In this document: one piece after another, positions 341 through 20,861 of the stretch
How positions within the stretch are numbered: position 1 is the first letter of the stretch
How the letters are laid out: every line of letters starts with the position of its first letter
Virus record (IMG/VR): IMGVR_UViG_3300031812_000024
Location: 1 to 22,158 of that record
Length of the DNA stretch: 22,158 nucleotides
DNA from: a virus
Direction: 5' to 3' (one strand)
The notes under the pieces: generated by a model
Told to the model about the DNA's origin: nothing
Databases searched by the model: none
Seen by the model: only the letters and a program-made list of their open reading frames with translations
Made by a program: the position numbers and the translations under genes

Positions 341-811
341 TCACCCTCCTATCATCGCACGTGCCGATGCAATGTTCCCTAGCTCTGGCGGCGTATCTAG
401 TCCGATCTTCCGCCACCGCGAAATTGGTCTTTCGGCAATCGCCAGAATCCTCGCCTTGACGTTTGCCGTCAGTATCTCGTTTTCAGGCAGGCTCTGAACG
501 AACTGCCTGACTGCCGGATGGCCAAAGTCGATGCCGCCGCCAACGCCGCGCTCGTCGCCAGGCATCTCCAGCATGCGCACCATGTCGGCAACCATGCGGC
601 TTTGGCCTGCCATGACGTCGAGCATGCTGCGCAGATAATCGTACTCGGCTTGCGAGAGAATCGCCGCAAGCGTGCGAAAGCCGGCGAAGTAGCTCACGAC
701 CTCAACGCCTGCCGGCTCCAGCATCTTCTGCGCGACCTGTGCATCGCTCATCGCGGCGTAACCCACACCGCCCGGATCGTCTCGTAGCTCGGGGACTAGC
801 TTGTCGTACAT
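341..811 (-). CDS. Conserved phage protein of tail-distal region, 156 aa
   Basis: The frame is open from 886, but the start chosen is the ATG at 811 (MYDKLVPELRDDPGG), preceded by GGAGA and overlapping the end of the HTH gene. The N-terminus has the pattern L..EL..DP.G.GYA.MSD.QVA seen in a family of small phage proteins that lie next to tail or lysis genes. The C-terminus ends with S-R-W-R-K-I-G-L followed by a short helical tail, which also fits that family. From memory, relatives often sit beside a small beta-rich protein like the one downstream here. The sequence is mostly helical, soluble, and shows no membrane segment or catalytic motif. Function is unknown; a structural or assembly role is inferred from context. 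Confidence 0.7.
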   Translation of the reverse strand: MYDKLVPELRDDPGGVGYAAMSDAQVAQKMLEPAGVEVVSYFAGFRTLAAILSQAEYDYLRSMLDVMAGQSRMVADMVRMLEMPGDERGVGGGIDFGHPAVRQFVQSLPENEILTANVKARILAIAERPISRWRKIGLDTPPELGNIASARAMIGG

Positions 812-1038
812 GTCATGTCTCCTGCAACATTCTTGGACTGTCGCAATTTCTTGCGCACGGCAATCGCCGCACGCGGAATCCACCACCGCCCACAGGCCAG
901 TACGGCGCCGGCAAGCTGCCCTCGGCGACAGAGCACAGCCACGCGCTGTCGCGACACGCGAAGCATCTTCGCCGCTTGAGACACGCTTACGTAATGACTC
1001 AGTAGCTCTTCAAAAGTCATTTCAGAACATGCAATCAT
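796..1038 (-). CDS. Small helix-turn-helix (excisionase/MerR-type) DNA-binding protein, 80 aa
   Basis: The start chosen is the ATG at 1038, with GAGG six bases upstream; the longer open frame to 1101 has no comparable ribosome-binding site. Residues about 15-60 form a winged HTH of the HTH_17/excisionase type: YVSVSQAAKMLRVSRQRV is the first helix-turn-helix, and GRWWIPRAAI is the typical wing strand followed by a helix. This fold is known in excisionases, small transcription factors and some phage DNA-packaging proteins. Its place between tail-tip genes and a conserved tail-distal gene is odd for an excisionase. The gene end overlaps the next gene start by 16 bases. Whether it regulates the operon, acts in excision, or has another role cannot be read from sequence. 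Confidence 0.75.
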   Translation of the reverse strand: MIACSEMTFEELLSHYVSVSQAAKMLRVSRQRVAVLCRRGQLAGAVLACGRWWIPRAAIAVRKKLRQSKNVAGDMTCTTS

Positions 1039-1119
1039 ATCTGACCTCAGAGTATGGCGCCCGCGATGTGTCAGTTTACCGATGTCAACATTGTCACGCA
1101 AGCAGTCGCAAGGCGCCTA

Positions 1120-1509
1120 TCATCGCAGCTTTCGCCGCTTCTGCTCTTCAAGCACATTGCGCTCCGCCATTTCGGGATCGTACTGCGTCCACGTCTCGCG
1201 TATCGCTGTTGCGTAGACGTGCCGCATGCCGCCATCGTCAAGCAGCGTTACCTGCCAGCCAAACGGCCACAGTCGTTGCGGGCCATAGCACGCGCGCCCT
1301 GATGGCGATGCCGCCCCTCGCAGCAATCGCCAGTCACGCACCTGGTGGCGGCGAGAATTGAAGCACCAGTCCCAGAAGATGACCTGGTCCAGGACGTGTT
1401 CCCCCATGTCGTTGTACAGGTGGTTCACCTCGACCAGATCGACGCGATGATGCCGGCTGTCGAGTAGCGGCGTAATGGCGAACAACGTCCAGGCAATCGC
1501 CGAGAACAT
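1120..1509 (-). CDS. Hypothetical protein, 129 aa, possible N-terminal signal/anchor
   Basis: The start is the ATG at 1509 with GAGG seven bases upstream, and that GAGG overlaps the stop of the glycosyltransferase gene (TGAGG). The first 15 residues (MFSAIAWTLFAITPL) are hydrophobic but short and lack a basic n-region, so an anchor or signal is uncertain. The body contains DSRHHRVDLVEVNHLY, a VIFWDW segment and a C-terminal RETWTQYDPEM followed by a charged helix. This pattern recalls, from memory, a hypothetical family widespread in Pirellula-like planctomycete genomes; that could not be checked. No catalytic motif is recognised. It is co-directional and coupled with the tail genes. If the resemblance holds, it supports a planctomycete host and may be a host gene taken up by the phage. 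Confidence 0.75.
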   Translation of the reverse strand: MFSAIAWTLFAITPLLDSRHHRVDLVEVNHLYNDMGEHVLDQVIFWDWCFNSRRHQVRDWRLLRGAASPSGRACYGPQRLWPFGWQVTLLDDGGMRHVYATAIRETWTQYDPEMAERNVLEEQKRRKLR

Positions 1510-1518
1510 GATAGGACC

Positions 1519-3168
1519 TCACGAGTATTGTTCGACGTGGGGTTCTGGCAGCCGTTCCCACGCTGCGCAGACATCCTCGAACCGTATGCGCCGCTTCTCC
1601 CATGGCCAGTAATTCCAATGATGTTCGATCATCATCATCCGCTTATGAAGCACCTCGACTGGCTCGTTACGCTTCTCAAAGCTTTGCTTCACAGCTTCCA
1701 GGTCGCGCTCAATCAACAGAAGCAGCGGCGCATCTGGCACCAGAACAGGGAGCCACAAATCCAAGTACTCGCATAGTCGCGGGTCTTTGATGACCCATGG
1801 GCGAGGCCATGCCTGCGCTGTACTGCGAAGCTCGGCCATTGGCACGTGCTCACCATAAAAAATGCGCTGATTGATTGCGCGCACATCGGTCGCCTCGGCA
1901 AACACTGGATCGTTGTTCGGAATATGCCACCCCATGGCGCGGAGCAGTTTGGTCACTACGCGCGACCCAGTATGGCCAGGTGTCAGCACGACCACACCGC
2001 GACCAGGTCGATCCAGGGCTGGCAGCGGGGCTGGCTCTTCGTTAGCACGCCAGTCGTCTGTCTCGACAAAGCGATAGTCGCTGGTGTTGTACCACTGCTT
2101 GCGGGTACGCAGCGCTAGGTAATTTTTATCGACGCGGCGGTCGGCTTGATGCGCAAGCGTCAGCGCAGGAGTTACGATGCACAGCAACCGCGCTACCGCC
2201 ATGTCGGCCAAGAACAAGCGATGCTCACCGGAGATTTTGACATCATCGCGCCAACGGACACGACGCAAGACGTCTGTCTTCGCGATAAACGAATTGAGGA
2301 AGCGCCCTGTGGGGCGCCATAATGTCCCGCGTTCGGACCTTTGCCACGGCCAAGGGGGACCTGCTCGCACAACTGGCGGGCTGCCTGGCAATACAGTAAT
2401 CGTCCCTGCCCAGTCGTGCACGCACTTCGTGCCCAGGTCGTATATCGGCCCCGCAGCCAGAACGGAATCCTTAACTTCCGCCAAAAGCCGAAGTGTTGCG
2501 ACGGCGTCTGTTGATGGCAGGACGACGAAGTCATCGTCCATCAGCCATGTGAACGGCGTGCGCACCTTAGCTACAGCGGCGTTGCGCGCAGCCGACAAGC
2601 CGCAGTCGTAAGGCAGCGACAGCCACTCGACCTGCGGATGCTGCCGGCACCATTGCGCTAGCTCGTTCGTCTCAGCTTCTTCGCCAGACTGGTCGGCCAC
2701 GATCACTCGTAGCTGCGGATAGTTGGCGCGTATCGACCTTAGCAGCGCTGCCAGACAGTTGAATCGCCTGAAGCTAACAACGATGATCGTAACCAGCCTG
2801 GCGAGAACGTCGCAAGCCTTTCCGCCTGCGACTTCTTCGATCTCTGATGCGGCACTCGCCGGCGAACTGCGGCGATCCAAGCACGTGGCACAGCACGCCA
2901 TGTTGTCGATTGCCTTGTACAGCGTGCATTGGCCATGCACCTTGCATGCGAATACCTTGACTTCCACGTGCCCGCGGCATGACGGGCAAACCTGTCGAGA
3001 AACCTCCTGGCCGCGAAATACACAGTCCGTCTCATTAGACGCTCTTGTAGTTGACGCTCTTGTAGTTGACGCTCTGCCGCCGCGGCAAGCGCAGTCCGAC
3101 GCCTCGGCGTACGACGCTCCATAGTTCTTGCGGCCGCAGTGCCGGCAAAAAACGATGTAGTGGCTCAT
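1519..3168 (-). CDS. Fusion: cysteine-cluster domain + GT2-like glycosyltransferase + sulfotransferase-like domain, 549 aa
   Basis: Three parts can be seen. Residues 1-100 hold cysteine pairs (CRHC 8-11, CAC 26-28, CPSC 61-64, CKVHGQC 75-81, CC 92-93, CATC 93-96) typical of zinc-ribbon-like metal sites. Residues about 126-345 are a GT-A fold: VTIIVVSFRR at the nucleotide-binding start, GLSAARN, a metal-binding DDD at 211-213, and SGEH at 313-316, where GT2/B4GalNT-like enzymes keep an acidic motif. Residues about 390-540 look like a sulfotransferase-family domain, with a PAPS-loop-like PGHTGSRVV at 397-405, a KDPRL motif at 461-465 and an LLLLIERD strand at 483-489. The likely role is sugar transfer plus a second modification of host surface or virion glycans. 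The substrate is unknown. The start ATG follows the previous stop by three codons and has only a weak ribosome-binding site. Confidence 0.8.
   Translation of the reverse strand: MSHYIVFCRHCGRKNYGASYAEASDCACRGGRASTTRASTTRASNETDCVFRGQEVSRQVCPSCRGHVEVKVFACKVHGQCTLYKAIDNMACCATCLDRRSSPASAASEIEEVAGGKACDVLARLVTIIVVSFRRFNCLAALLRSIRANYPQLRVIVADQSGEEAETNELAQWCRQHPQVEWLSLPYDCGLSAARNAAVAKVRTPFTWLMDDDFVVLPSTDAVATLRLLAEVKDSVLAAGPIYDLGTKCVHDWAGTITVLPGSPPVVRAGPPWPWQRSERGTLWRPTGRFLNSFIAKTDVLRRVRWRDDVKISGEHRLFLADMAVARLLCIVTPALTLAHQADRRVDKNYLALRTRKQWYNTSDYRFVETDDWRANEEPAPLPALDRPGRGVVVLTPGHTGSRVVTKLLRAMGWHIPNNDPVFAEATDVRAINQRIFYGEHVPMAELRSTAQAWPRPWVIKDPRLCEYLDLWLPVLVPDAPLLLLIERDLEAVKQSFEKRNEPVEVLHKRMMMIEHHWNYWPWEKRRIRFEDVCAAWERLPEPHVEQYS
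3038..3075 (-). repeat. 15-base in-frame tandem repeat, 2.5 copies
   Basis: The unit gacgctcttgtagtt (plus-strand) occurs at 3038-3052 and 3053-3067, with a partial third copy to 3075. On the coding strand it encodes RASTT repeats in the linker between cysteine clusters of the glycosyltransferase fusion. A 15-base unit keeps frame, so copy number could change the linker length without disrupting the protein. Confidence 0.9.
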
Positions 3169-3174
3169 GGAAGC

Positions 3175-4638
3175 TCATTGATACTCGTGGCATCCAATCG
3201 GATATGCAACGCACCGCCTTGCCAAAAAATCAAATAGCAGTACCTCGTTGGATTGATTTTCATCAGGCTTCCAAAACTTCAATCCGACGCGCGATGCATC
3301 AGGGAATACGTCCCTGCACCTAAGAAATTGTAGCTGTGGGTATTGTAACCAATGTCTAGTTTCAGACCAAATCCCTAAAAGTGCGTGACAAAACGGTGAT
3401 CCAATATAGTCTGGGTTCGTACTATTCGACAACATAAGAAACCCGCATTCTGATGGACCAAAATTATCAAAAACGCCTTCAGGTTCACCAATCCAATCCC
3501 CTTCTCCATCACACCATCCAAAATAAATGCTACGGTTGCGATAATCAACGCGAAAGCCGCCTATCGGACCATTGTCACCGTCAAAAAACAATGCCGCCAT
3601 GTTACTATTCGCACAGGACCAATGCACGTCAAATTCAAGATCGAAGTCGTCATACTCCGGCCCCTTCCAGGCCATTATATGCGGCCTCCAGATGAGCGTC
3701 TTGCGGTTCTGCTCGTCAACTGGAATCGTGTAGTTGTACGCAGATACTGGGTATACTTCATAACCGATCAACCCATAAACACTATTAAACCAATTGCAAA
3801 CATGTAACTTAAGCTCCTTTTCCACGTCTTGTGGAATTGAAATCCAATCATCTTCCTTCCACTGACAGTAAGGATTCATGCGGTTGACGAAACAATTATC
3901 AACAATCGCACACAACGCATCATCAGGATGCTCAGTGCGATGCCCCTCCGTGTGCGCTCTTTCCAAAACGATTCCAGGATCCGTTGCGTTGACATTTACT
4001 TTTATCACTCGCTCCAGTTCTCCGCCTTCCCATATGAACAAGTAGTTAAAATACTCTGCAGCAATTGAATCGCCGAGTAGTACGTTGACGGAACTGGAAG
4101 CGCTGTGAACGACGCAGCCTATCGAAAGCCTCCGATTGCCTTGCAAAATTCGCATGTGCCGCGTTGCGACATGCTGCCACTGCTCGCCTTCACGACGCTG
4201 AATGGTATATGTCGCATCGCATACCTCTGCCTCGCGTGCAATGTTAACCGAAAACTTGTTTCCAAAGATTACTGTTACGTTTCCATGCGACCCCTCCAGC
4301 CAAGTCAATTCGACCAACAGTTCGCCGCTACGCTCAATCGTAGGTACGCCGCCAACGCACGGCGTGATCGCTTCGCCGTAAGTCGTCTGTATGCCATCAG
4401 CGATCTTTGTCCATGTGCCAGAGAGCAACTTTATGCTGGCCTGCTCTGAGGGCGTTCCGAATGAATAGAAAATTGGATCGGCGGCACATGGACTTTCCAG
4501 GCAAACATTGAGCGGCAGCGTTTCGTAATTCTGAAATGTCTGTTCGCCATTGCGGAGACAAGAGCAGTCCACGAGGGGGAACTCACAAGGAAACTCGCTT
4601 TTGCAACACCCGCACGGCCCGTTCACCCGCAACTTCAT
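3175..4638 (-). CDS. Cysteine-rich virion/tail protein, 487 aa
   Basis: This large protein is not assigned to a known family. It contains 22 cysteines, six of them in the first 27 residues (CGCC, then PC, then CSC), an arrangement suggesting a metal site or disulfide knot at the N-terminus. The remainder is beta-rich. Residues about 330-420 (DDFDLEFDVHWSC through GFLMLSNSTN, with GGFRVDYRNRSIYFGW) resemble a jelly-roll or lectin-like sandwich, by pattern only. The ATG lies behind GGAG nine bases upstream and six bases after the preceding stop. Its position between tail genes and the glycosyltransferase suggests an adsorption or tail-tip protein. The DNA looks more AT-rich than the genes on either side, which may indicate different ancestry. 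No catalytic motif is visible. Confidence 0.8.
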   Translation of the reverse strand: MKLRVNGPCGCCKSEFPCEFPLVDCSCLRNGEQTFQNYETLPLNVCLESPCAADPIFYSFGTPSEQASIKLLSGTWTKIADGIQTTYGEAITPCVGGVPTIERSGELLVELTWLEGSHGNVTVIFGNKFSVNIAREAEVCDATYTIQRREGEQWQHVATRHMRILQGNRRLSIGCVVHSASSSVNVLLGDSIAAEYFNYLFIWEGGELERVIKVNVNATDPGIVLERAHTEGHRTEHPDDALCAIVDNCFVNRMNPYCQWKEDDWISIPQDVEKELKLHVCNWFNSVYGLIGYEVYPVSAYNYTIPVDEQNRKTLIWRPHIMAWKGPEYDDFDLEFDVHWSCANSNMAALFFDGDNGPIGGFRVDYRNRSIYFGWCDGEGDWIGEPEGVFDNFGPSECGFLMLSNSTNPDYIGSPFCHALLGIWSETRHWLQYPQLQFLRCRDVFPDASRVGLKFWKPDENQSNEVLLFDFLARRCVAYPIGCHEYQ

Positions 4639-4644
4639 CGCTGC

Positions 4645-5412
4645 TCACTCCGGAGGAATCGAAGGACTCGCCGCCTTGCAGTAAGCTTGTGTTACGTACC
4701 ACTTGCCGTTGAACGATTCGACACGCACCTTAGTTCCCGCCGGAACTGATTCGTTTGAATTCATCCAAAAGTCGTAAGCAACTAGAGTGTATGGGCTTTT
4801 CTTCCATCCGGTCTGATGTATCGAGAGGATCACTACATTTGCACTACTGCCTGCATTGAGCTGATTGCTTAATACGCCAAATACGATTGGCGCATGTTCC
4901 TGTATGGCCAATGCCTTGCCTTCTCCCAAGTCCTTCAATATCCGAAATCCAGGCAAGCCAACCCGAAGGAGCCAGGCGTTCGGATAACCACCAGCAATCC
5001 AGGGAGTAGATGGCAGCATGCCATTATACTTTACCGGCACTGGCTCCCACCCCCACGATGCAATGCCGTAATCGCGTGCTGGAACAGTGCCGCCAATGTT
5101 CACGAGATAGCGGCTCTGAAATACATCCCCTGGCTTTCCAACCTTGAAGTATCCCTGAGCATACCCAGCAGCCGGATCGGCGCCTTCCTCTACATCAATC
5201 ACAAAGTCGCGAATTTCGAGAATCGCCCCATGGGGAGCATCTTCATCCTCGTCGAGAACAAACGGCACTACATCAGACAGCGTTTCGTCGAGAATATCTC
5301 GACTCGGATGCCGACCAATATGGCGGCGCTCCTTGCGCTGTCTCTTAAACTCAAAGTACATCCGCCGCAGTTCACCAGCGGCGTACCTCGACAAACGTAC
5401 TCCGCGACTCAT
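4645..5412 (-). CDS. Tail-region structural protein, unknown, 255 aa
   Basis: The start ATG overlaps the previous stop in an ATGA junction, so the two genes are coupled. The N-terminus is strongly basic and helical (RRMYFEFKRQRKERR). It is followed by an acidic stretch (residues about 50-60, DEDED) and then a beta-rich body with many glycines and aromatics, such as WGWEPVPVKYNG. A C-terminal segment (GTKVRVESFNGKWYVTQAYC) looks like a small SH3-like or OB-like barrel. No family is recognised. Genes in this slot of siphovirus genomes, after the tape measure, normally encode tail-tip, baseplate or fibre proteins. The tail-region assignment is inferred from context alone. Confidence 0.75.
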   Translation of the reverse strand: MSRGVRLSRYAAGELRRMYFEFKRQRKERRHIGRHPSRDILDETLSDVVPFVLDEDEDAPHGAILEIRDFVIDVEEGADPAAGYAQGYFKVGKPGDVFQSRYLVNIGGTVPARDYGIASWGWEPVPVKYNGMLPSTPWIAGGYPNAWLLRVGLPGFRILKDLGEGKALAIQEHAPIVFGVLSNQLNAGSSANVVILSIHQTGWKKSPYTLVAYDFWMNSNESVPAGTKVRVESFNGKWYVTQAYCKAASPSIPPE

Positions 5413-6578
5413 AGCTTTCGCACTTGAATTTCTTGCATGCCGCTTAGAGTTATCGTCGGAGCGCCGCCATTGAATGAATCAGTACGCACGACGCCCTCCC
5501 AAAGCTCCACCTCTCCGACATTTACATCGACACCTGTTGCCATGTCAAGCAATGGCAACCGTCCAGTTTGACGCAGTGACTGTAGCACAATTTTTCTGAT
5601 GTACTTTGTGGTGCGAACAGAAACCGTTCCGCCAAGCACACTTATGCCATTGCCTGTTCCTGTCAATGTGAACGGCTCCTGAAAGTCCACACGCCCACCG
5701 TAAATCTGAATGTTGCCATTTGGTGGCGAAAAGACATGACGAAAAGTCGCTCGTCCCGCTTCTACGATAATCTGCGAATCGTTGGCCGTCATTTGCACAC
5801 CACGCCGCAGCACGACGTCTGATTCTTCGCCCCACATTTCCAATCTCTTGAGAAGACTCGTTGCATCCAACCGATCCGGCATGAACAACTGACCGCCGCG
5901 AATACGCACCACCGTGTTAGCATAGTTGCTGCGCAGAAATACCGTCGGGCCTTGCCTGGACTGTGTACCAATATGCACTTCGGGGTTGATGCTTTGGCCA
6001 TCAGCAAAAGCGATGTAATGCTCTCCACTGCCATCCAGCATCAAGCTGTCAGCGCCCCAAATCACAAGCGGACTGCCATCCTTACCAAGTTTCCCTCGAT
6101 ACGAAGCAGTCGTTGTAAACTCAGCGCAGTACATTGCCTGCGTGAAATCCCCGGTAAGACTGCCCGAAGCATCGTCGAAAATTACCGCATCAACGCTCTG
6201 CGGCACAGCACGATACGTCAAAGCATCGAGCAACAGATTGTCTGGATCGGGCGAAGGCTCACTTGCCGGCAATCGCACATAGATCGTGTCTTTGCCGAGC
6301 GAATCCTTGTCGTCCGTCTTCCACGTACCGGCCTCAAGGGGCCACGTCGAACTTGGCAGTAACGTCCCACGCAATGCCAGCTCAGAGTAAACCTGGGCAC
6401 TAATCAGCCCATCGGGGATCGTTCCATCGGCACGCTTCAGGTAATAGGCATTCGAGTCGGCTCCGGATTGCATCCATGTATACTCCGCAGAACGAATGCT
6501 GATCCATCGCCACGATGCTGCGACGTTAAAAAACCCATCGTTGCTACCGAAATACTTGCGCAGGCCAGTAACCGCCAT
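5409..6578 (-). CDS. Tail structural protein with beta-helix-like C-terminal half, 389 aa
   Basis: The start ATG at 6578 has AGGAG eight bases upstream. The N-terminal part (residues 1-130) contains many aromatic and acidic residues, including a YVRLPASEPSPDP segment. From about residue 200 to 340 the sequence is built of short strands separated by G, N and D turns (for example RIRGGQLF, IIVEAGRATFRHVF, IQIYGGRVDF, ISVLGGTVSV). This spacing of about 20 residues per rung fits a right-handed beta-helix, as in phage tailspikes and pectate-lyase-like folds. No hydrolase motif is obvious. A tailspike, fibre or adhesin role is inferred from fold pattern and position downstream of the tape measure. 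Confidence 0.75.
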   Translation of the reverse strand: MAVTGLRKYFGSNDGFFNVAASWRWISIRSAEYTWMQSGADSNAYYLKRADGTIPDGLISAQVYSELALRGTLLPSSTWPLEAGTWKTDDKDSLGKDTIYVRLPASEPSPDPDNLLLDALTYRAVPQSVDAVIFDDASGSLTGDFTQAMYCAEFTTTASYRGKLGKDGSPLVIWGADSLMLDGSGEHYIAFADGQSINPEVHIGTQSRQGPTVFLRSNYANTVVRIRGGQLFMPDRLDATSLLKRLEMWGEESDVVLRRGVQMTANDSQIIVEAGRATFRHVFSPPNGNIQIYGGRVDFQEPFTLTGTGNGISVLGGTVSVRTTKYIRKIVLQSLRQTGRLPLLDMATGVDVNVGEVELWEGVVRTDSFNGGAPTITLSGMQEIQVRKL

Positions 6579-6593
6579 GTCAATATCTCCTGG

Positions 6594-7796
6594 CTAACTG
6601 AACAAAGTCGAAAAGTCCATCTCCGGATACGGCATCCAGATGCCATAGTACGGCACGATCCTTCCCATGCGTTTGATATCTGATGGCTTGCCCGTTCCGT
6701 CTAGCAGTATAGGCCCAGTTGGCGCGCTGCCATCGCGGGTCCTGAACCGCGTACGCGGAATGATTGGCGTCTTGAGTGGATTTTCGGAAATCTTCTGGAG
6801 CCTGGCGTCGTCGAGCATTGCGTAACCCTGATCGAGCAGACGCACGGCCCAAGTCAATGGATTGAACAGTATCTCGACACTCAACTGCCAGTAGTTGCCC
6901 TGATCGCTGCGAACAAATCGACCGCCAAGCGATCTTAGCAATGCCTGCCACCTCGACGGAGCGCTGATCGAGAACCCCAGTTGCGGCCAGTTAATTGTGA
7001 ATGGACCGGAATTTACAACGTTCGTCAGACCATCCCATGCAGTCCCAAGATTAAACCAGAACGAAAGATAACTCAGACGAACAACAGTAATCTGAACCTC
7101 AATCTCCGCCGGTGGATCGTATGGCTCTAAAGCACTATTTGTAACTGGCATGATTTGACGCAGCGGCATCTGGTCTGGATGCCGCATGCCTATATCGCCA
7201 AAGTCTAGCCCATCTTCTGCAAAGCCATAGAAGAACGCTGTTTCCATCGGGACAGATATAGACTGATAGCTGACTTCGATTTCTGGTCCAATCTGACTGT
7301 TTTGTGGCCTATTGTCCTCATCCCTTCTGTTTTCACGGTTACTATTATCGCCGCCCTGAGGAACACTAGCCTGCACTTCGACATTAAAATGAGTCGCGTC
7401 AATCTGGTCAATTGTCAAAGACTTGACCATTGCAAGCGCAGTACCAGACCCAAACGATACGGCACGCCCAGGGGTCGGAAAGCCCGATTTTGATTCAAGC
7501 TCCTTCCGCAGATCATCCGCGCTAACGCCATCTTCCGTTTCGACAAAATATCGCCATGTCACCGACGGATCGAGGAACGCATCTTTGTCATTAACCTCAA
7601 ACCCAGATCGATGCTGCCGCAAATTCAGCTTTTTAATTTTCCCGCTCTGACCACCTTGCGTCGGAAATCTCGTCGATTGCGAATTGGCTCGAATATCAAG
7701 AGGCTGCGTAGAACTCGAAGATACATTCCCAAGAAGTTCCTCGATCCGTCGAGGATTCGCAATCCCCGCAGAATTCATCCCCGAAAAGCCAGTCAT
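6594..7796 (-). CDS. Tail-region structural protein, unknown, 400 aa
   Basis: The start ATG at 7796 is preceded by GAGGGGA, and the gene begins 11 bases after the tape measure stop. The N-terminal 60 residues are low in complexity and rich in S, N, Q and G. A second disordered polar stretch rich in N, R, D and E at about 150-170 splits the protein into two parts. The C-terminal part contains PYYGIWMPYPEMDFSTLF. The position directly after the tape measure is where distal-tail or tail-hub proteins sit in siphoviruses, so this is a candidate, but no DIT, Tal or hub motif is recognised. A tail-tip role is inferred from synteny only. Confidence 0.75.
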   Translation of the reverse strand: MTGFSGMNSAGIANPRRIEELLGNVSSSSTQPLDIRANSQSTRFPTQGGQSGKIKKLNLRQHRSGFEVNDKDAFLDPSVTWRYFVETEDGVSADDLRKELESKSGFPTPGRAVSFGSGTALAMVKSLTIDQIDATHFNVEVQASVPQGGDNSNRENRRDEDNRPQNSQIGPEIEVSYQSISVPMETAFFYGFAEDGLDFGDIGMRHPDQMPLRQIMPVTNSALEPYDPPAEIEVQITVVRLSYLSFWFNLGTAWDGLTNVVNSGPFTINWPQLGFSISAPSRWQALLRSLGGRFVRSDQGNYWQLSVEILFNPLTWAVRLLDQGYAMLDDARLQKISENPLKTPIIPRTRFRTRDGSAPTGPILLDGTGKPSDIKRMGRIVPYYGIWMPYPEMDFSTLFS

Positions 7797-7807
7797 AACC
7801 TATCCCC

Positions 7808-8959
7808 TCAAAAGTCAACAACATCACTTCCAGTGCCACGCAACTTAACGTTCATCGCTTGCAGCTCACGCAGTATATCTTCCGATATTTCCACCTGTCG
7901 CTCAGCAAGCTGCGTCTGTCGAACTTGCTCAGCCTCAGCCTTGAGGCGCGCGCTGACCTCGGCAGCCGTGCCGGCCTGCACAGCACCAGCAAAACGCTGC
8001 GTTGGCTCTGGCTCTAACTGCATTTTCGCTTGCTTGAGCTTTTCAACAGCCGCTGCAACGTTGCGGTCGAATGTCTCAGTGTCAATGAACGTTCCATTGA
8101 GAAGCTGCTTTAACTCTTCAATGGTGTCACGAAATTCCTCAACAGGCGTACGCACCGCTTTCGCCAGCTCTTCGCCACGTCGCTTGAGACGTTCGACGTC
8201 CGCCTCCATCTCACGCTGAATGCGGGCAATCTCCTGCTCCTCCTGGCGGCGACGCTCCTCAGCTTCCTGTTTCCGTTTCTCCGCTTCCTCCTTCATCTTC
8301 CTTGCACGTTCTAACGCCTGTTTCGCCATCGCGTCGCGGCGGCGAACCTCGGCCAGCGCTTCCTCGCCCAGGAACCACGTTGCAGCGGACTCAATAAGAT
8401 CGGCAAGCCCCAACTTCAAATCGGCGAAACTAAATCCAACAAACTCCCCCAAAGCTTCGCCAACACGACCGAGTGCTTTGTACAGCTCATCGCCAGCCTG
8501 CGCACTGGTCATTAGTTCGCGCGGCAGCACAAATTCCTTGCCGGCTATCTCAGCAAGGATACGCTCAGCCTCCTGAAGCTGAGTCAATCGAAAGTCGCGC
8601 GACGCCTGCCCAGCATTCGCAATTGTGGTACCGAGTAGTGCTACCGCGGCCACCGCGGCTGTGACGCCAGCAACGGCTGCCCCAGCCGCGCCGCCAATTG
8701 CACCAAGCCCCGAAGTCACTGTTCTTAGATACTTCGTTGCGTCTCGCGTTGCACCTCCGAATAAACGCGATGCTTTCAACAGGTCGTTGGACAGGTTTTG
8801 TAGAATGCCTTTTGATGCTGACCCGCTACCTCCTAACAATGCAGGCTTCTGCGCTTCCTGCTTAAACTGAACGATCTTTTGTATAGACTGATCCAGCGTG
8901 CGACGAAATTCCTCATCCGTCGCCGTAAGCTGAACGTTGAATTTACCGATGTTCGCCAT
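7808..8959 (-). CDS. Tape measure protein, short (383 aa)
   Basis: This sets tail length and is thought to occupy the tail tube lumen. Residues 1-40 (MANIGKFNVQLTATDEEFRR) match the usual N-terminus of tape measures. Residues about 84-116 are a glycine/alanine-rich hydrophobic stretch that could insert into membrane during DNA ejection. Residues about 205-275 form a long, highly charged coiled coil (repeated EE, RR, KR). It follows the frameshifted chaperone genes, which is the canonical position. Using the established rule of about 0.15 nm per residue, a tail of about 55-60 nm is expected, short for a siphovirus. The start overlaps the end of the chaperone extension by 17 bases. No lytic peptidase domain is seen. 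Confidence 0.88.
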   Translation of the reverse strand: MANIGKFNVQLTATDEEFRRTLDQSIQKIVQFKQEAQKPALLGGSGSASKGILQNLSNDLLKASRLFGGATRDATKYLRTVTSGLGAIGGAAGAAVAGVTAAVAAVALLGTTIANAGQASRDFRLTQLQEAERILAEIAGKEFVLPRELMTSAQAGDELYKALGRVGEALGEFVGFSFADLKLGLADLIESAATWFLGEEALAEVRRRDAMAKQALERARKMKEEAEKRKQEAEERRRQEEQEIARIQREMEADVERLKRRGEELAKAVRTPVEEFRDTIEELKQLLNGTFIDTETFDRNVAAAVEKLKQAKMQLEPEPTQRFAGAVQAGTAAEVSARLKAEAEQVRQTQLAERQVEISEDILRELQAMNVKLRGTGSDVVDF

Positions 8960-9550
8960 ACTGATCGCGCAGTTTCTTGGCCCGCATAATCAGATCATCG
9001 GGCGATGGACCGTCGTGCTCATAGTATGGCCACAACAACTGAGGCAACGGAGCACTGCTACCTAGACCATGCAGCCACATGACGTGCACAGCACCACGCA
9101 TGTCATCCCGCAGTTCTCCCCACGGGTCCTCGTGGTAGGCCTGCTTCCATGCAATCAGCTCCTCGGCAGGAAGCACGTCTAGCAGCCATTGAAACGACAG
9201 CACGCCGAGTGTACGCGCCAGCAGCACGCTGAAACGACGCCACTCGGCGGGTGTCAGTTTTTTGACGTGCCAGGCCAGACTGCATCAACCAGCTTCTGAG
9301 CTACGTCATATGGCACTGCTTCAACTAAATCGCGTGGCAATGGCTGCCCTTGCGCATCGCACAGCGTCCGCGCCAATAGCTCACGCCAAAAAACGGCCAC
9401 AGTCTCGGGCCTGGTCTGGTCGCAGCCAGCCAGCAAGACTTGCAGCTCGATCCAGTTCGTGGCATTGAGCGGACGAAAATACCACGTCACGCCGTCCAAC
9501 ACAACTTCGCGAGGCGCCAAACGCTGGCGCAAGTATTCGAGACAATCCAT
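8943..9550 (-). CDS. Tail assembly chaperone, frameshifted long form (GT-type), 202 aa
   Basis: This is the product expected if ribosomes slip back one base at 9257-9263. The first 98 codons (9550-9257) are shared with the short form. Translation then resumes in the minus-one frame at 9257 with L-T-P-A-E-W and runs to a TAA at 8943. The extension has no ATG of its own and would otherwise depend on an internal GTG at 9227 with no ribosome-binding site. It carries the pattern L.....AEELIAWKQAYHEDPWGELRDD, as in the C-terminal part of GT-type chaperones (DUF4035-like). In phage lambda gpGT links the tape measure to tail tube subunits during assembly and is absent from the finished virion. Confidence 0.85.
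9203..9263 (-). promoter_or_regulatory. Programmed minus-one frameshift signal: A-AAA-AAC heptamer plus stem-loop
   Basis: On the minus strand the sequence reads TCA AAA AAC TGA, giving the canonical X-XXY-YYZ heptamer A-AAA-AAC (9263-9257) in the zero frame, with the stop TGA directly after it. After a seven-base spacer, CGCCGAGTG (9249-9241) can pair perfectly with CACTCGGCG (9211-9203), giving a nine-bp stem around a 29-base loop. Stem spacing and heptamer frame both fit known frameshift sites in tail chaperone genes. The plus-strand poly-T run is 9258-9263. Confidence 0.85.
9254..9550 (-). CDS. Tail assembly chaperone, short form (G-type), 98 aa
   Basis: The start ATG at 9550 has AGGAG upstream (acaggagaacagc before ATG). 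The protein is acidic and helical, with MDCLEYLRQR at the N-terminus and a body matching small phage tail chaperones by size, place and pattern (WYFRPLNATNWIELQVLLAG). It lies between the tail tube gene and the tape measure, the universal slot for gpG. Its stop TGA at 9254 lies directly behind the slippery heptamer, so the short form should be the main product and the long form a minor one. The family function is to coat the tape measure during tail assembly. Confidence 0.85.
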   Translation of the reverse strand: MDCLEYLRQRLAPREVVLDGVTWYFRPLNATNWIELQVLLAGCDQTRPETVAVFWRELLARTLCDAQGQPLPRDLVEAVPYDVAQKLVDAVWPGTSKN

Positions 9551-9568
9551 GCTGTTCTCCTGTTATTT

Positions 9569-9970
9569 CTACAAAGTTCTCGATGGCTTCTGAGTCGCAA
9601 TGAAGCCTACCACAAATGCCAGAAGTCGGTTATTGCCAGTCGTTGCTACTGGAGCATGCTTCACAACTTTTGCTGTAAAACCATCAGAAACACCATTCGC
9701 ATACACGATCGACATATTCACTTGTTCTTTACTGTCAAGCTTGCTAAGCATTGCATTGATTGCCTCCCTGCTAATATCGTCATCGTACAGAATCGTCATC
9801 TCGAACTCGACAGTTTTGTACGTGCCAGGCTCTTTTGTTTCGTATGTCGCGCCAAGTGGCGTTGACTCGATCAGCTCACGCTCTAATGCAATAGGCTGCA
9901 AATCTGTAACTAGGCTCACGTTGTTTCCATCAAAATTTACAACAACTGCCGATCCAGTGTATTTTGCCAT
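9569..9970 (-). CDS. Major tail tube protein, 133 aa
   Basis: The start ATG at 9970 is eight bases behind a strong AGGAG. The N-terminus MAKYTGSAVVVNFDG is typical of small siphovirus tail tube subunits, followed by two beta strands and an acidic beta hairpin (YKTVEFEMTILYDDD), then a helix near EAINAMLSK and C-terminal strands. This is the gpV/HK97-tube-like fold pattern. The length is in the lower part of the usual range. It lies between tail terminator/completion genes and the tail chaperones, the canonical slot. The ribosome-binding region (ACAGGAGTAACT) is identical over 12 bases to that of the gene after the capsid, suggesting high expression. Confidence 0.85.
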   Translation of the reverse strand: MAKYTGSAVVVNFDGNNVSLVTDLQPIALERELIESTPLGATYETKEPGTYKTVEFEMTILYDDDISREAINAMLSKLDSKEQVNMSIVYANGVSDGFTAKVVKHAPVATTGNNRLLAFVVGFIATQKPSRTL

Positions 9971-9986
9971 GACAGTTACTCCTGTG

Positions 9987-10649
9987 TTACACTTTAGCCA
10001 ACGCTAGAACCGCCTGCTGCATTGCCGCACGCGACGCAAGTTCCTGCGAAATCTCGGCGGCACGCTGCAAAAAACGATACCCAGGGCCTGGACGCTTAGC
10101 GACAATGTGCGCATAACGTACAGGTACGCGAACTCGTACACCTGGAAAATTCGCCCTCACAAGCCGTCGCGCAAACAAGTACGGAGACAAGCGACGATCG
10201 CCCTTGAATTTGGCGAACTGACTTGGATCGATCGCCTTAGCAATATCGAGTACCTTCGGCGCTTTCTTGGAATTCGCTTCACGTCGATGCAAATACTCAA
10301 GCGCTGGAACAAGCTTCTTGTATAGCTTCGTCGCTTCAGTGTGCGTCTTTAGCCCTACCTTGCCTCTGCGCTTGGTCTTCTTTGCGGTAAGCCACTTTGC
10401 ATATGCCCTTGACGGACCAATGAGAACCCTCACGTTTGGGTGCTGAGCTGTTGGGGTCAATATCTTGATTTCCAAGCTGCTATGCAATGCACCAGTGTCG
10501 CGCGGAGCAAGAGCGCGAGCTGCCGTACGCACGACACTCCCAGCAGCATTGCCCATGCGCAGCAGCACTATATTGCGCGACTTTTCCTCAATGCTGCGAA
10601 GCTTCTCCATCACAGCAGCGTCGCCTTGAACCTTGACTGAAACATTCAT
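9987..10649 (-). CDS. Tail completion / HK97 gp10-like protein, 220 aa
   Basis: The frame is open from a TTG at 10658, but the better start is the ATG at 10649, which overlaps the previous stop as ATGA and has GGAGC about nine bases upstream. The N-terminus (NVSVKVQGDAAVMEKLRSIEE) followed by RTAARALAPRDTGALHSSL matches the HK97-gp10_like family, where the A-P-x-D-T-G-x-L motif is characteristic. The middle (residues about 85-160) is an unusual basic insertion with KKTKRRGK and several helices, making it longer than the usual 120-150 residues. In relatives this protein sits at the head-tail junction. Role is from family knowledge; the insertion is unexplained. Confidence 0.82.
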   Translation of the reverse strand: MNVSVKVQGDAAVMEKLRSIEEKSRNIVLLRMGNAAGSVVRTAARALAPRDTGALHSSLEIKILTPTAQHPNVRVLIGPSRAYAKWLTAKKTKRRGKVGLKTHTEATKLYKKLVPALEYLHRREANSKKAPKVLDIAKAIDPSQFAKFKGDRRLSPYLFARRLVRANFPGVRVRVPVRYAHIVAKRPGPGYRFLQRAAEISQELASRAAMQQAVLALAKV

Positions 10650-11041
10650 AGCGGCCAAGCTCCGATAGTCGCCTGGACAAGCATCAGCCCCGATTCATCT
10701 CCATCACCCTGCGGCACCACAACTTCACTCATCGCCTCCACTTTCCATTCCCACGTCACGTCACCATCGGCAGTTTGCGTTGAATCGACTTGATTGAGCA
10801 GTGCATCTTCAATGATGATTGCATCGACGTAATCTTGCACCACAAACTCGACCTGGTACGACCGCTTAAACACCTGCACGCCACTCACCACATTCTGCGA
10901 CTCGATGCCAAGCAACCACAGCACGGCATACGGCGCGACAAACGATTGCGGCGCCCGGCCATAAGCAACACGATCACCAACAACGCCAGCAATCGCAGCG
11001 TTGCTAATCATGGCCTGTCTCAATGCCTGTGGAGCGCTCAC
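10646..11041 (-). CDS. Tail terminator-like protein (DUF3168 type), 131 aa
   Basis: Start is a GTG at 11041, overlapping the previous stop as GTGA. The N-terminus (LRQAMISNAAIAGVVGDRV) and following YGRAPQSFVAPYAVLWLLG match the DUF3168 tail-terminator pattern, where a short helix precedes a strand with P.....PYA. A central VFKRSYQVEFVVQDY strand and a helix EDALLNQVD follow, as in that family. Tail terminators cap the tail tube and set its end at the connector. Order in the cluster (connector, closure, terminator, tail completion, tube) is consistent. It ends in an ATGA overlap with the next gene. Confidence 0.75.
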   Translation of the reverse strand: MSAPQALRQAMISNAAIAGVVGDRVAYGRAPQSFVAPYAVLWLLGIESQNVVSGVQVFKRSYQVEFVVQDYVDAIIIEDALLNQVDSTQTADGDVTWEWKVEAMSEVVVPQGDGDESGLMLVQATIGAWPL

Positions 11042-11355
11042 GATTCACCGCACAACATGCGAAGTCGCAATCCATTCGTCCTCACGTCGATCACCGACAG
11101 GATTTGCAGCTTGCGTCGTCGATCTGGAAGAATCTCAAGCCAGCACTCGCTGAGATTTTCCCACTGCGGGTCGCCATAGCCGTGGACCTCGTAAACCGCA
11201 CTGACTTCCGTCTTGTTCTGCCCCTCCGTCTCTCGATGCCCTGCTGGAAGTATCTGGCAAGGCCATTCAGGGCACACGACCGTCGGACTTCCTGTACGAT
11301 TTCCAAGCGAATCCACAGTCGATGGAGGCCTGAGAATCACAACGTGGTGCTGCAT
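11038..11355 (-). CDS. Head-tail joining / head-closure protein, 105 aa
   Basis: Start ATG at 11355 overlaps the previous stop by one base (TAATG). The small beta-barrel pattern (MQHHVVILRPPSTVDSLG, then WPCQILPAGHRE, then KLQILSVIDVR) matches the SPP1 gp16 / Phage_H_T_join family of head-tail adaptors, which close the connector after DNA packaging. The length of about 105-115 residues is typical. The gene lies between the connector and terminator genes, as expected. It contains three cysteines, which is unusual for this family; their role is not clear. Confidence 0.75.
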   Translation of the reverse strand: MQHHVVILRPPSTVDSLGNRTGSPTVVCPEWPCQILPAGHRETEGQNKTEVSAVYEVHGYGDPQWENLSECWLEILPDRRRKLQILSVIDVRTNGLRLRMLCGES

Positions 11356-19741: not shown

Positions 19742-20064
19742 GGCCTAAGCCTCCCCAATAAACCGCGTACCACAGAAAGCGGCCTCAAGATGCGACGCAC
19801 GGGGCCAGTGCGGTAACGATACGTGCCTGTGTACGTGTTCTCAGAAGACAGATTGCACTGACCAGAATCACAGGCTGTATTTTCAAAAGATGGCACAGGC
19901 GGAGACGATGGAGAGTCAGCGGTCTCGTCATCCGCCTGTGCCTGGGGCGGCGAATCGACCTGTGCAGCGGGTGGCGTCGCTGCTTCGCCGCTCGTAGTAG
20001 CCGGCGCATTCGCTATCGCGTAAATCACAGCGCAGCACGCAAGAAAGATAGGAACGTCACGCAT
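19738..20064 (-). CDS. Exported or anchored proline-rich protein, 108 aa
   Basis: The start ATG at 20064 overlaps the peptidase stop by one base (TAATG), with GGAG eight bases upstream; the longer open frame reaches back into the peptidase gene. Residues 1-20 (MRDVPIFLACCAVIYAIANA) are a signal-peptide-like hydrophobic core ending in small residues, with likely cleavage after ANA. The following 50 residues are low-complexity and rich in A, P, T, S, Q, D (a linker). The C-terminus (TGTYRYRTGPVRRILRP) is basic. No enzymatic motif is present. Placed next to the peptidase it may be a substrate, inhibitor or partner, but that is conjecture. Confidence 0.65.
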   Translation of the reverse strand: MRDVPIFLACCAVIYAIANAPATTSGEAATPPAAQVDSPPQAQADDETADSPSSPPVPSFENTACDSGQCNLSSENTYTGTYRYRTGPVRRILRPLSVVRGLLGRLRP

Positions 20065-20861
20065 TATGACAACTCCGGAGTGTACACGGTACGAATCACA
20101 AAAGCCCAACCCGCAGAAGCACGCATCATGCGCATCGAATCAGCGCCGAACCCATACTGAAAATCGCCAGCTCCAAACCCCCAACGCCCCCACGAATTCG
20201 CATAGATCGCATAAAGCTGGCCATCTTTGTACGTAAGTCCGCAGTAACAAATGCTATGGCCACTTCGGCCAACCACAACTGGTTCCTGTCGTAGAAGCGC
20301 TGTTACCAAACCCTCTAGCGTCCGAACAACGTATGTCTCTTGGCACCGAAACTGCCTGGCCACATCTTCCCATCTCTCTGGCCACTTCGTGTAAAAGCCC
20401 ACATTGGGCATCGTCGCCACAAAGCGATGGCGATTCTCTTCAGTGTTGAGCGGCAAAGCGCCCCGCCTCGATAGCTCGTCTAGCGCATCGTCCAACATCG
20501 ACCCGCTGTTCGGAGACCGACCAATCCTCTTATACAAGCTGATCGCCGAAAGCGGAATCACGCGATGCTTTCCCACTGTACGTGCCTGCACAATCTCATG
20601 CGCTTGACACGTCGCGTTGGCGACGCAAGAACCCTCTCCATCCTGATCGTAGATGCGCGTCACAAGCCTTACGGCACCACCGCCATCTGCCTCCATCGCT
20701 CGCACTAGCTCAGGCCACTGCGACGATGGTATCGGTGGCACAGCATTTTCGTAAGTACCAAAGCCATAAAGCGCACCGCCAGGCCGGGGGCCAAGATCGC
20801 CGCGTCGCCACTCCGGGACAACACGAAAATCGAAGTCCACAAATGCCGCATCAAAGTCCAC
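20064..20861 (-). CDS. Papain-like (C1) cysteine peptidase, 265 aa
   Basis: The start is a GTG at 20861, four bases after the preceding stop. The catalytic signature is complete: Gln73 in DQDGEGSCVANATCQ, Cys79 directly after it, His202 in VVVGRSGHSICY and Asn222 in YAIYANSWGRWG. This order Gln-Cys-His-Asn is that of papain-family clan CA proteases. No signal peptide or long pro-region is apparent; the first 60 residues could be a short propeptide. C1 peptidases are common in planctomycetes but rare in phage structural operons. Targets could be a host surface protein, a prohead component or the next exported protein. The catalytic assignment is firm, the role is open. Confidence 0.85.
   Translation of the reverse strand: MDFDAAFVDFDFRVVPEWRRGDLGPRPGGALYGFGTYENAVPPIPSSQWPELVRAMEADGGGAVRLVTRIYDQDGEGSCVANATCQAHEIVQARTVGKHRVIPLSAISLYKRIGRSPNSGSMLDDALDELSRRGALPLNTEENRHRFVATMPNVGFYTKWPERWEDVARQFRCQETYVVRTLEGLVTALLRQEPVVVGRSGHSICYCGLTYKDGQLYAIYANSWGRWGFGAGDFQYGFGADSMRMMRASAGWAFVIRTVYTPELS

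Follow-up and report, generated by a model that had tools for sequence, protein, structure and literature searches.

A recurrent phage gene joining a glycosyltransferase to a sulfotransferase-superfamily domain and its putative role in glycan modification

The gene described here raises the question of what a glycosyltransferase (GT) fused to a sulfotransferase-like (ST) domain may serve for in the tail region of a phage genome. To our knowledge, few systems of virion glycosylation by phages are known; that of mycobacteriophages was reportedly described by Freeman et al. in 2023. We propose, at slightly less than even confidence, that the protein is a bifunctional enzyme that builds and caps a glycan, most likely on a virion tail protein; its activity, donor, sulfation, target and timing are what we infer.

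The gene, its operon and its N-terminal domains

The window, i.e. the whole stretch of DNA analysed, is a virus contig of 22,158 bases. The fusion gene (1519..3168, minus strand) is an open reading frame running from an ATG at 3168 down to 1519 and coding for 549 amino acids, with homologues across both the GT and the ST domain in phages and planctomycete genomes; the plus strand over 1519-3168 is packed with stops and non-coding in that frame. It starts 6 nt past an ORF for a distal tail-region protein of 487 amino acids (3175..4638, minus strand; no Pfam match) and closes a co-directional phage operon. The genes for terminase, portal, the HK97-type major head protein (MCP) and structural proteins downstream share its strand, in accord with the tail-region setting that a sequence-only reading of this DNA had assigned to the gene; its count of 22 cysteines in the adjacent protein is exact as well. 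The tail-region genes of the operon (4645-5412, 5409-6578, 6594-7796 and 7808-8959, spanning 4645..8959, minus strand) are co-directional, overlapping or nearly abutting ORFs, and weak homologues of the ORF at 6594-7796 adjoin the fusion in L212, L213, L218 and L225. Small genes follow downstream (341..1509, minus strand), with products of 129 amino acids, 101 amino acids (HTH_17, 796-1101) and 181 amino acids. Elsewhere on the minus strand (20064-20861) a protein of 265 amino acids looks papain-like by eye (GSCVANATCQ) and has no PHROG match.

All motifs named in the sequence-only reading (the CxxC clusters, DDD, GEH, PGHTGSR and KDPR) are present in the protein. Its N-terminal module (residues 1-115; 2824..3168, minus strand) carries the RASTTRASTTRAS repeat and has no Pfam match. 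Thirteen of the 20 cysteines of the fusion protein fall in residues 1-120 (hypergeometric P=3e-5); the three CxxC motifs, at residues 8, 61 and 93, are by their count alone marginal (P=0.025, shuffling). AlphaFold2 (AF2) does not resolve the module (pLDDT mostly 27-53), and a regex search for other carriers returned the window gene alone. Cys modules are C-terminal in the relatives L212-L219. Judged from these arrangements in sequence, the Cys module is an accessory one, N-terminal in the window gene and C-terminal or absent in relatives.

The second domain (residues 122-345; 2134..2805, minus strand) had been read as a glycosyltransferase, and PF00535 matches it over residues 127-239 (E=1e-12). 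The nearest solved protein is human B4GALNT1, a member of GT12 (E=3e-10 with the single sequence, E=1.6e-37 with a 19-member profile), which is also the top Foldseek match for the full-length model (E=8e-19). By homology, the domain is an inverting GT-A glycosyltransferase of GT12-like type. Its DDD at residues 211-213 (2530..2538, minus strand), the predicted DxD metal/UDP site, aligns with the DDD of B4GALNT1, where D356 and D358 are ligands of UDP and Mn (PMC12217166). Within GEH at 314-316 (2221..2229, minus strand), E315 and H316 are invariant in 19 relatives by alignment. Outside this motif H340 is invariant in the family too, and another GEH, at 439, is incidental.

Recurrence, mobility and gene neighbourhood

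The same fusion is found well beyond the window, so that it is neither a rare one-off nor an artefact, the latter being ruled out by its recurrence in IMG/VR contigs and planctomycete genomes. When IMG/VR was scanned with the GT+ST alignment, 22 loci matched, 17 of them with the fusion by motif; with the look-alike pairs L212/213, L214/216 and L217/218 each counted once, at least 14 other distinct contigs carry it, 15 with the window. Full fusions are present in four planctomycete genomes and a truncated piece in a fifth. As just three of 392 planctomycete genomes match the GT+ST alignment at 1e-20, and one of these matches covers the GT domain alone, the fusion is rare in genomes; viral records hold most of the full fusions found. 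Searches of INPHARED by tblastn gave nothing, whether the query was the full-length protein or the C-terminal domain; peptide-seeded single-protein scans gave nothing either, and the stretches examined in terminase relatives (at most 46% identity) contained no fusion. In one planctomycete genome (L203:9401-9724), a truncated ST-domain ORF lies beside an apparent transposase sequence. Since the fusion profile was run on Planctomycetota only, a planctomycete host for the window phage is only suggested. The ST profile was run on 398 Pseudomonadota genomes, and among the matches examined there are fusions in reverse order and sulfotransferases whose loop position holds Arg.

The closest relatives of the window protein, encoded by L206-L208, are 62-63% identical to it. 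Because proteins so similar (~62%) are found in phages with no other gene detectably in common with the window (compared over the complete L206 record and part of the L208 record), we conclude that the gene moves laterally. Identities of the GT and ST domains co-vary (Mantel r=0.84, reached in 0 of 5000 permutations; 0.43 without close pairs).

Architecture varies around the constant GT–ST pair. L206-L208 encode GT71–repeats–GT–ST proteins, with an FkbM methyltransferase gene after the L206 fusion; L220 joins GT25–GT25–GT–ST in one protein (8228-11251), the N-terminus of which is a Tyr/Gly repeat (YGYxYGY); L224 has GT and ST as split neighbouring ORFs. A stand-alone canonical Sulfotransfer_1 (PF00685, E=9e-10, loop YPKCGRTW) is encoded near the fusion on the same viral contig in L222 (11559-12218). 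These glycan-related functions, fused or nearby (GT71 in L206-L208, two GT25 in L220, FkbM after L206, Sulfotransfer_1 near L222), point to a role in glycan synthesis. Directly upstream of the 1021-amino-acid GT71–GT–ST enzyme, a gene in L206 (6968-8230) and L208 (7073-8227) encodes a long Ser-rich (SSGP)n tract, limited to this one lineage, which is a plausible candidate for an O-glycosylation acceptor.

In most fusion contigs, across several unrelated backbones, the gene stands just downstream of tape-measure and other tail genes. L214-L219 share the order tape measure, protein of 315 amino acids, small ORF (in some), Cys-rich protein (30-32 Cys) and fusion, and in L202 and L220 the fusion again follows tape-measure and other tail genes; in L210, L221 and L222 it lies away from recognised tail genes. 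The 22-Cys neighbour had been read as possibly sharing metal or disulfide chemistry with the enzyme or serving as its substrate. Homology of the Cys-rich neighbours between lineages was tested and none is detectable, leaving their shared ancestry unsupported. Being unrelated to its counterparts in other lineages, the 22-Cys protein does not qualify as a conserved partner or substrate; Cys-rich distal tail proteins nonetheless recur beside the fusions of other lineages.

Homologues on planctomycete chromosomal contigs (L163/L184, L200 and L201) bear on the main rival of a virion target, namely that the enzyme alters and caps a glycan of the host envelope, as in serotype conversion or superinfection exclusion. 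Together with the lambda-type portal, glycosyltransferases and RHS-repeat protein of L163/L184, they favour that reading, and so do cellular ST–GT fusions containing RgpF or GT2 domains, which resemble surface-polysaccharide enzymes. Against it, neither a membrane anchor nor a flippase nor a GtrA/B-type partner was seen, adjacency to tail genes is repeated, and full fusions are mostly viral as against two of 392 planctomycete genomes. We regard a host-surface target as somewhat unlikely. The planctomycete contig L184 (3981-4997, 15221-19171) carries the fusion together with genes for a lambda-type portal, a glycosyltransferase/TPR megaprotein, a NifU-like protein, a DUF6171 protein and an RHS-repeat protein rich in Cys; a large RHS-like protein is encoded near the fusion of L201 as well.

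The C-terminal domain

The remaining domain (residues 387-545, ~160 amino acids; 1534..2010, minus strand), delimited by the AF2 model and by hhalign to a PF13469 set, had been read as a possible sulfotransferase, and homology to that superfamily is borne out by profiles. Pfam gives no PF13469 match over cut-off for the window protein and no match to any family for the C-terminal domain alone, and searches of this domain against the PDB (phmmer/hmmsearch) gave no meaningful match; two of the 19 family members match PF13469 directly. A planctomycete search yielded the full homologue L163, and a two-sequence domain profile retrieved more fusions and, at lower score, ordinary Planctomycetota sulfotransferases passing the PF13469 cut-off. 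Aligned by hhalign to sequences gathered independently with PF13469, the domain scores P=8.5e-7 (P=8e-8, 94% probability, with a cleaned set); the control, a profile of adenylate kinases (ADK) from the same phylum, gives P=0.39. GHTGS is thereby paired with RSGTT, KDPR with a conserved K-x-P, and R488…S496 with RDP…S. In Pseudomonadota, the ST profile matches GMHRSGTS…KDPR…RNPxEVAxSL proteins at 1e-8 to 3e-13. By these sequence comparisons, the C-terminal domain is homologous to PF13469-type sulfotransferases.

Three features speak for a rival reading, in which the domain is a kinase or some other P-loop transferase, or else binds the acceptor without being active. The AF2 model is confident (pLDDT 92, pTM 0.86), and Foldseek returns for it a weak mix in which P-loop kinases (adenylate, guanylate and glucono-) outrank sulfotransferases; because of this mixture the fold search remains ambiguous and the fold by itself indecisive, so homology rests on the profiles. 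The domain is also short, and its phosphosulfate-loop equivalent PGHTGSR (residues 397-403; 1960..1980, minus strand; G398, H399 and G401 invariant) carries His where the PSB Lys/Arg would stand, in 19 of 19 aligned members. Against a kinase stand the lack of a Walker A motif GxxxxGK[ST] in this loop, the lack of Pfam kinase matches among the 19 members and the ADK control. The conservation of KDPR and of the Arg…Ser pair argues for a sulfotransferase relationship, and one PF13469 protein (L195) has Asn at the same Lys/Arg position. On balance, we hold a non-sulfotransferase domain to be unlikely.

The residues expected of a PAPS site are retained in part. KDPR (residues 461-464; 1777..1788, minus strand) is invariant, occurs also in cellular GMHRSGTS/KDPR sulfotransferases and aligns near the KDPF of TPST. 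The pair R488…S496 (1681..1707, minus strand; spacing 8), by homology the 3'-phosphate-binding Arg and Ser, is kept: R488 is invariant, and S496 is present in the window and most relatives, with T or I in a few. The Lys/Arg of the 5'-phosphosulfate loop is treated as defining in a review of polysaccharide sulfotransferases (PMC11625862). As an invariant His stands in its place, PAPS use is unproven, and we therefore place the domain in the sulfotransferase superfamily but stop short of naming it a sulfotransferase. In L221 (9911-11260) and L222 (10004-11287), a Cys-rich, zinc-ribbon-like insertion separates the P-loop from KDPR.

Proposed role and comparison with known systems

A membrane helix-like segment is absent from 19 family members (maximal Kyte-Doolittle values 1.0-2.0). 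Because a soluble GT is combined with a capping domain, extra GT modules and a position in the tail operon, we favour a late glycan-building enzyme, and the presence of the pairing in ~15 mostly unrelated viruses means that it probably builds and caps a sugar, possibly a sulfated one, on the virion or the infected cell. According to this proposal, a soluble enzyme made late in infection alongside the tail genes would modify a glycan in two steps. The GT12-like domain would take a sugar from a UDP-sugar donor and attach it to a glycan or protein acceptor. The sulfotransferase-superfamily domain would then cap what has been formed, host PAPS most likely providing sulfate for this step. The likeliest acceptor would be a distal tail or fibre protein of the virion that the tail operon itself encodes, an altered host surface glycan being the main alternative. 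No PAPS-making gene, APS kinase included, was found in the phage records, so PAPS would need to come from the host. As 22 of 40 planctomycete genomes encode APS kinase, the fusion carrier G400 among them, a supply of host PAPS is plausible.

Glycosylation and decoration of hydroxymethylated phage DNA bases is very improbable: a TAGT (TET-associated GT) match is weak and below cut-off (E=0.0024) and phage DNA-modification systems with glycosyltransferases and sulfotransferases are mentioned in a passage of PMC10829341 citing Iyer 2013, but the GT is far closer to GT12, the gene sits among tail genes, and Tet_JBP has no match in 19 records (a count made without positive control, some records being fragments).

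The two-step glycan enzyme may be stated in a more specific form, namely that a mobile phage gene family makes sulfated virion-tail glycans by means of modular GT71/GT25/GT12 plus ST polypeptides with His in the phosphosulfate loop; in this full form we consider it doubtful. If the enzyme does sulfate virion glycans, phages would acquire a surface chemistry that is anionic and resembles that of eukaryotes, with consequences for adsorption, aggregation and recognition; the (SSGP)n protein encoded next to the fusion in L206/L208 is a specific candidate acceptor that lends itself to testing. Even without sulfation, a GT–ST module common to otherwise unrelated phages makes up a well-delimited enzyme family that can be tested and is marked by its diagnostic His substitution.

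Glycosylation of phage virions is already known, as cited in passages of PMC12619734 and PMC12894461. The mycobacteriophage systems covered there resemble our proposal in that capsid and tail proteins of the phage bear glycans; the passages citing them report no sulfotransferase domain. The open-access literature searched describes neither sulfated glycans on phage virions nor a GT–ST fusion of this kind, and as far as it shows, the new elements are a laterally shared phage family, the GT12-like–ST order, the modular extensions and the His-substituted phosphosulfate loop.

Each half of the fusion has well-described relatives. B4GALNT1 (CAZy GT12, PDB 9h6j-l) shares with the window protein the GT-A fold and the DDD metal site over ~215 aligned residues; it is a membrane-tethered eukaryotic ganglioside enzyme, whereas the window protein is putatively soluble, and many relatives of the latter carry E-E-D in place of D-D-D. 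Bacterial Sulfotransfer_3 (PF13469) proteins of the GMHRSGTS…KDPR type, a group whose characterised members or relatives include TPST and NodH, have in common with the C-terminal domain a strand-loop-helix P-loop, KDPR, the Arg…Ser 3'-phosphate pair and a terminal [FY]E strand. They differ from it in that the window domain has only ~160 amino acids, is fused C-terminally to a GT and bears the invariant His for the PSB Lys/Arg. Cellular fusions in Pseudomonadota (L288-L290; Pfam PF13469 in L289 and L290) likewise unite sulfotransferase-like and glycan-synthesis domains in one polypeptide, but in reverse order, with GT2 or RgpF type partners, with the PSB Arg present and in cellular genomes.
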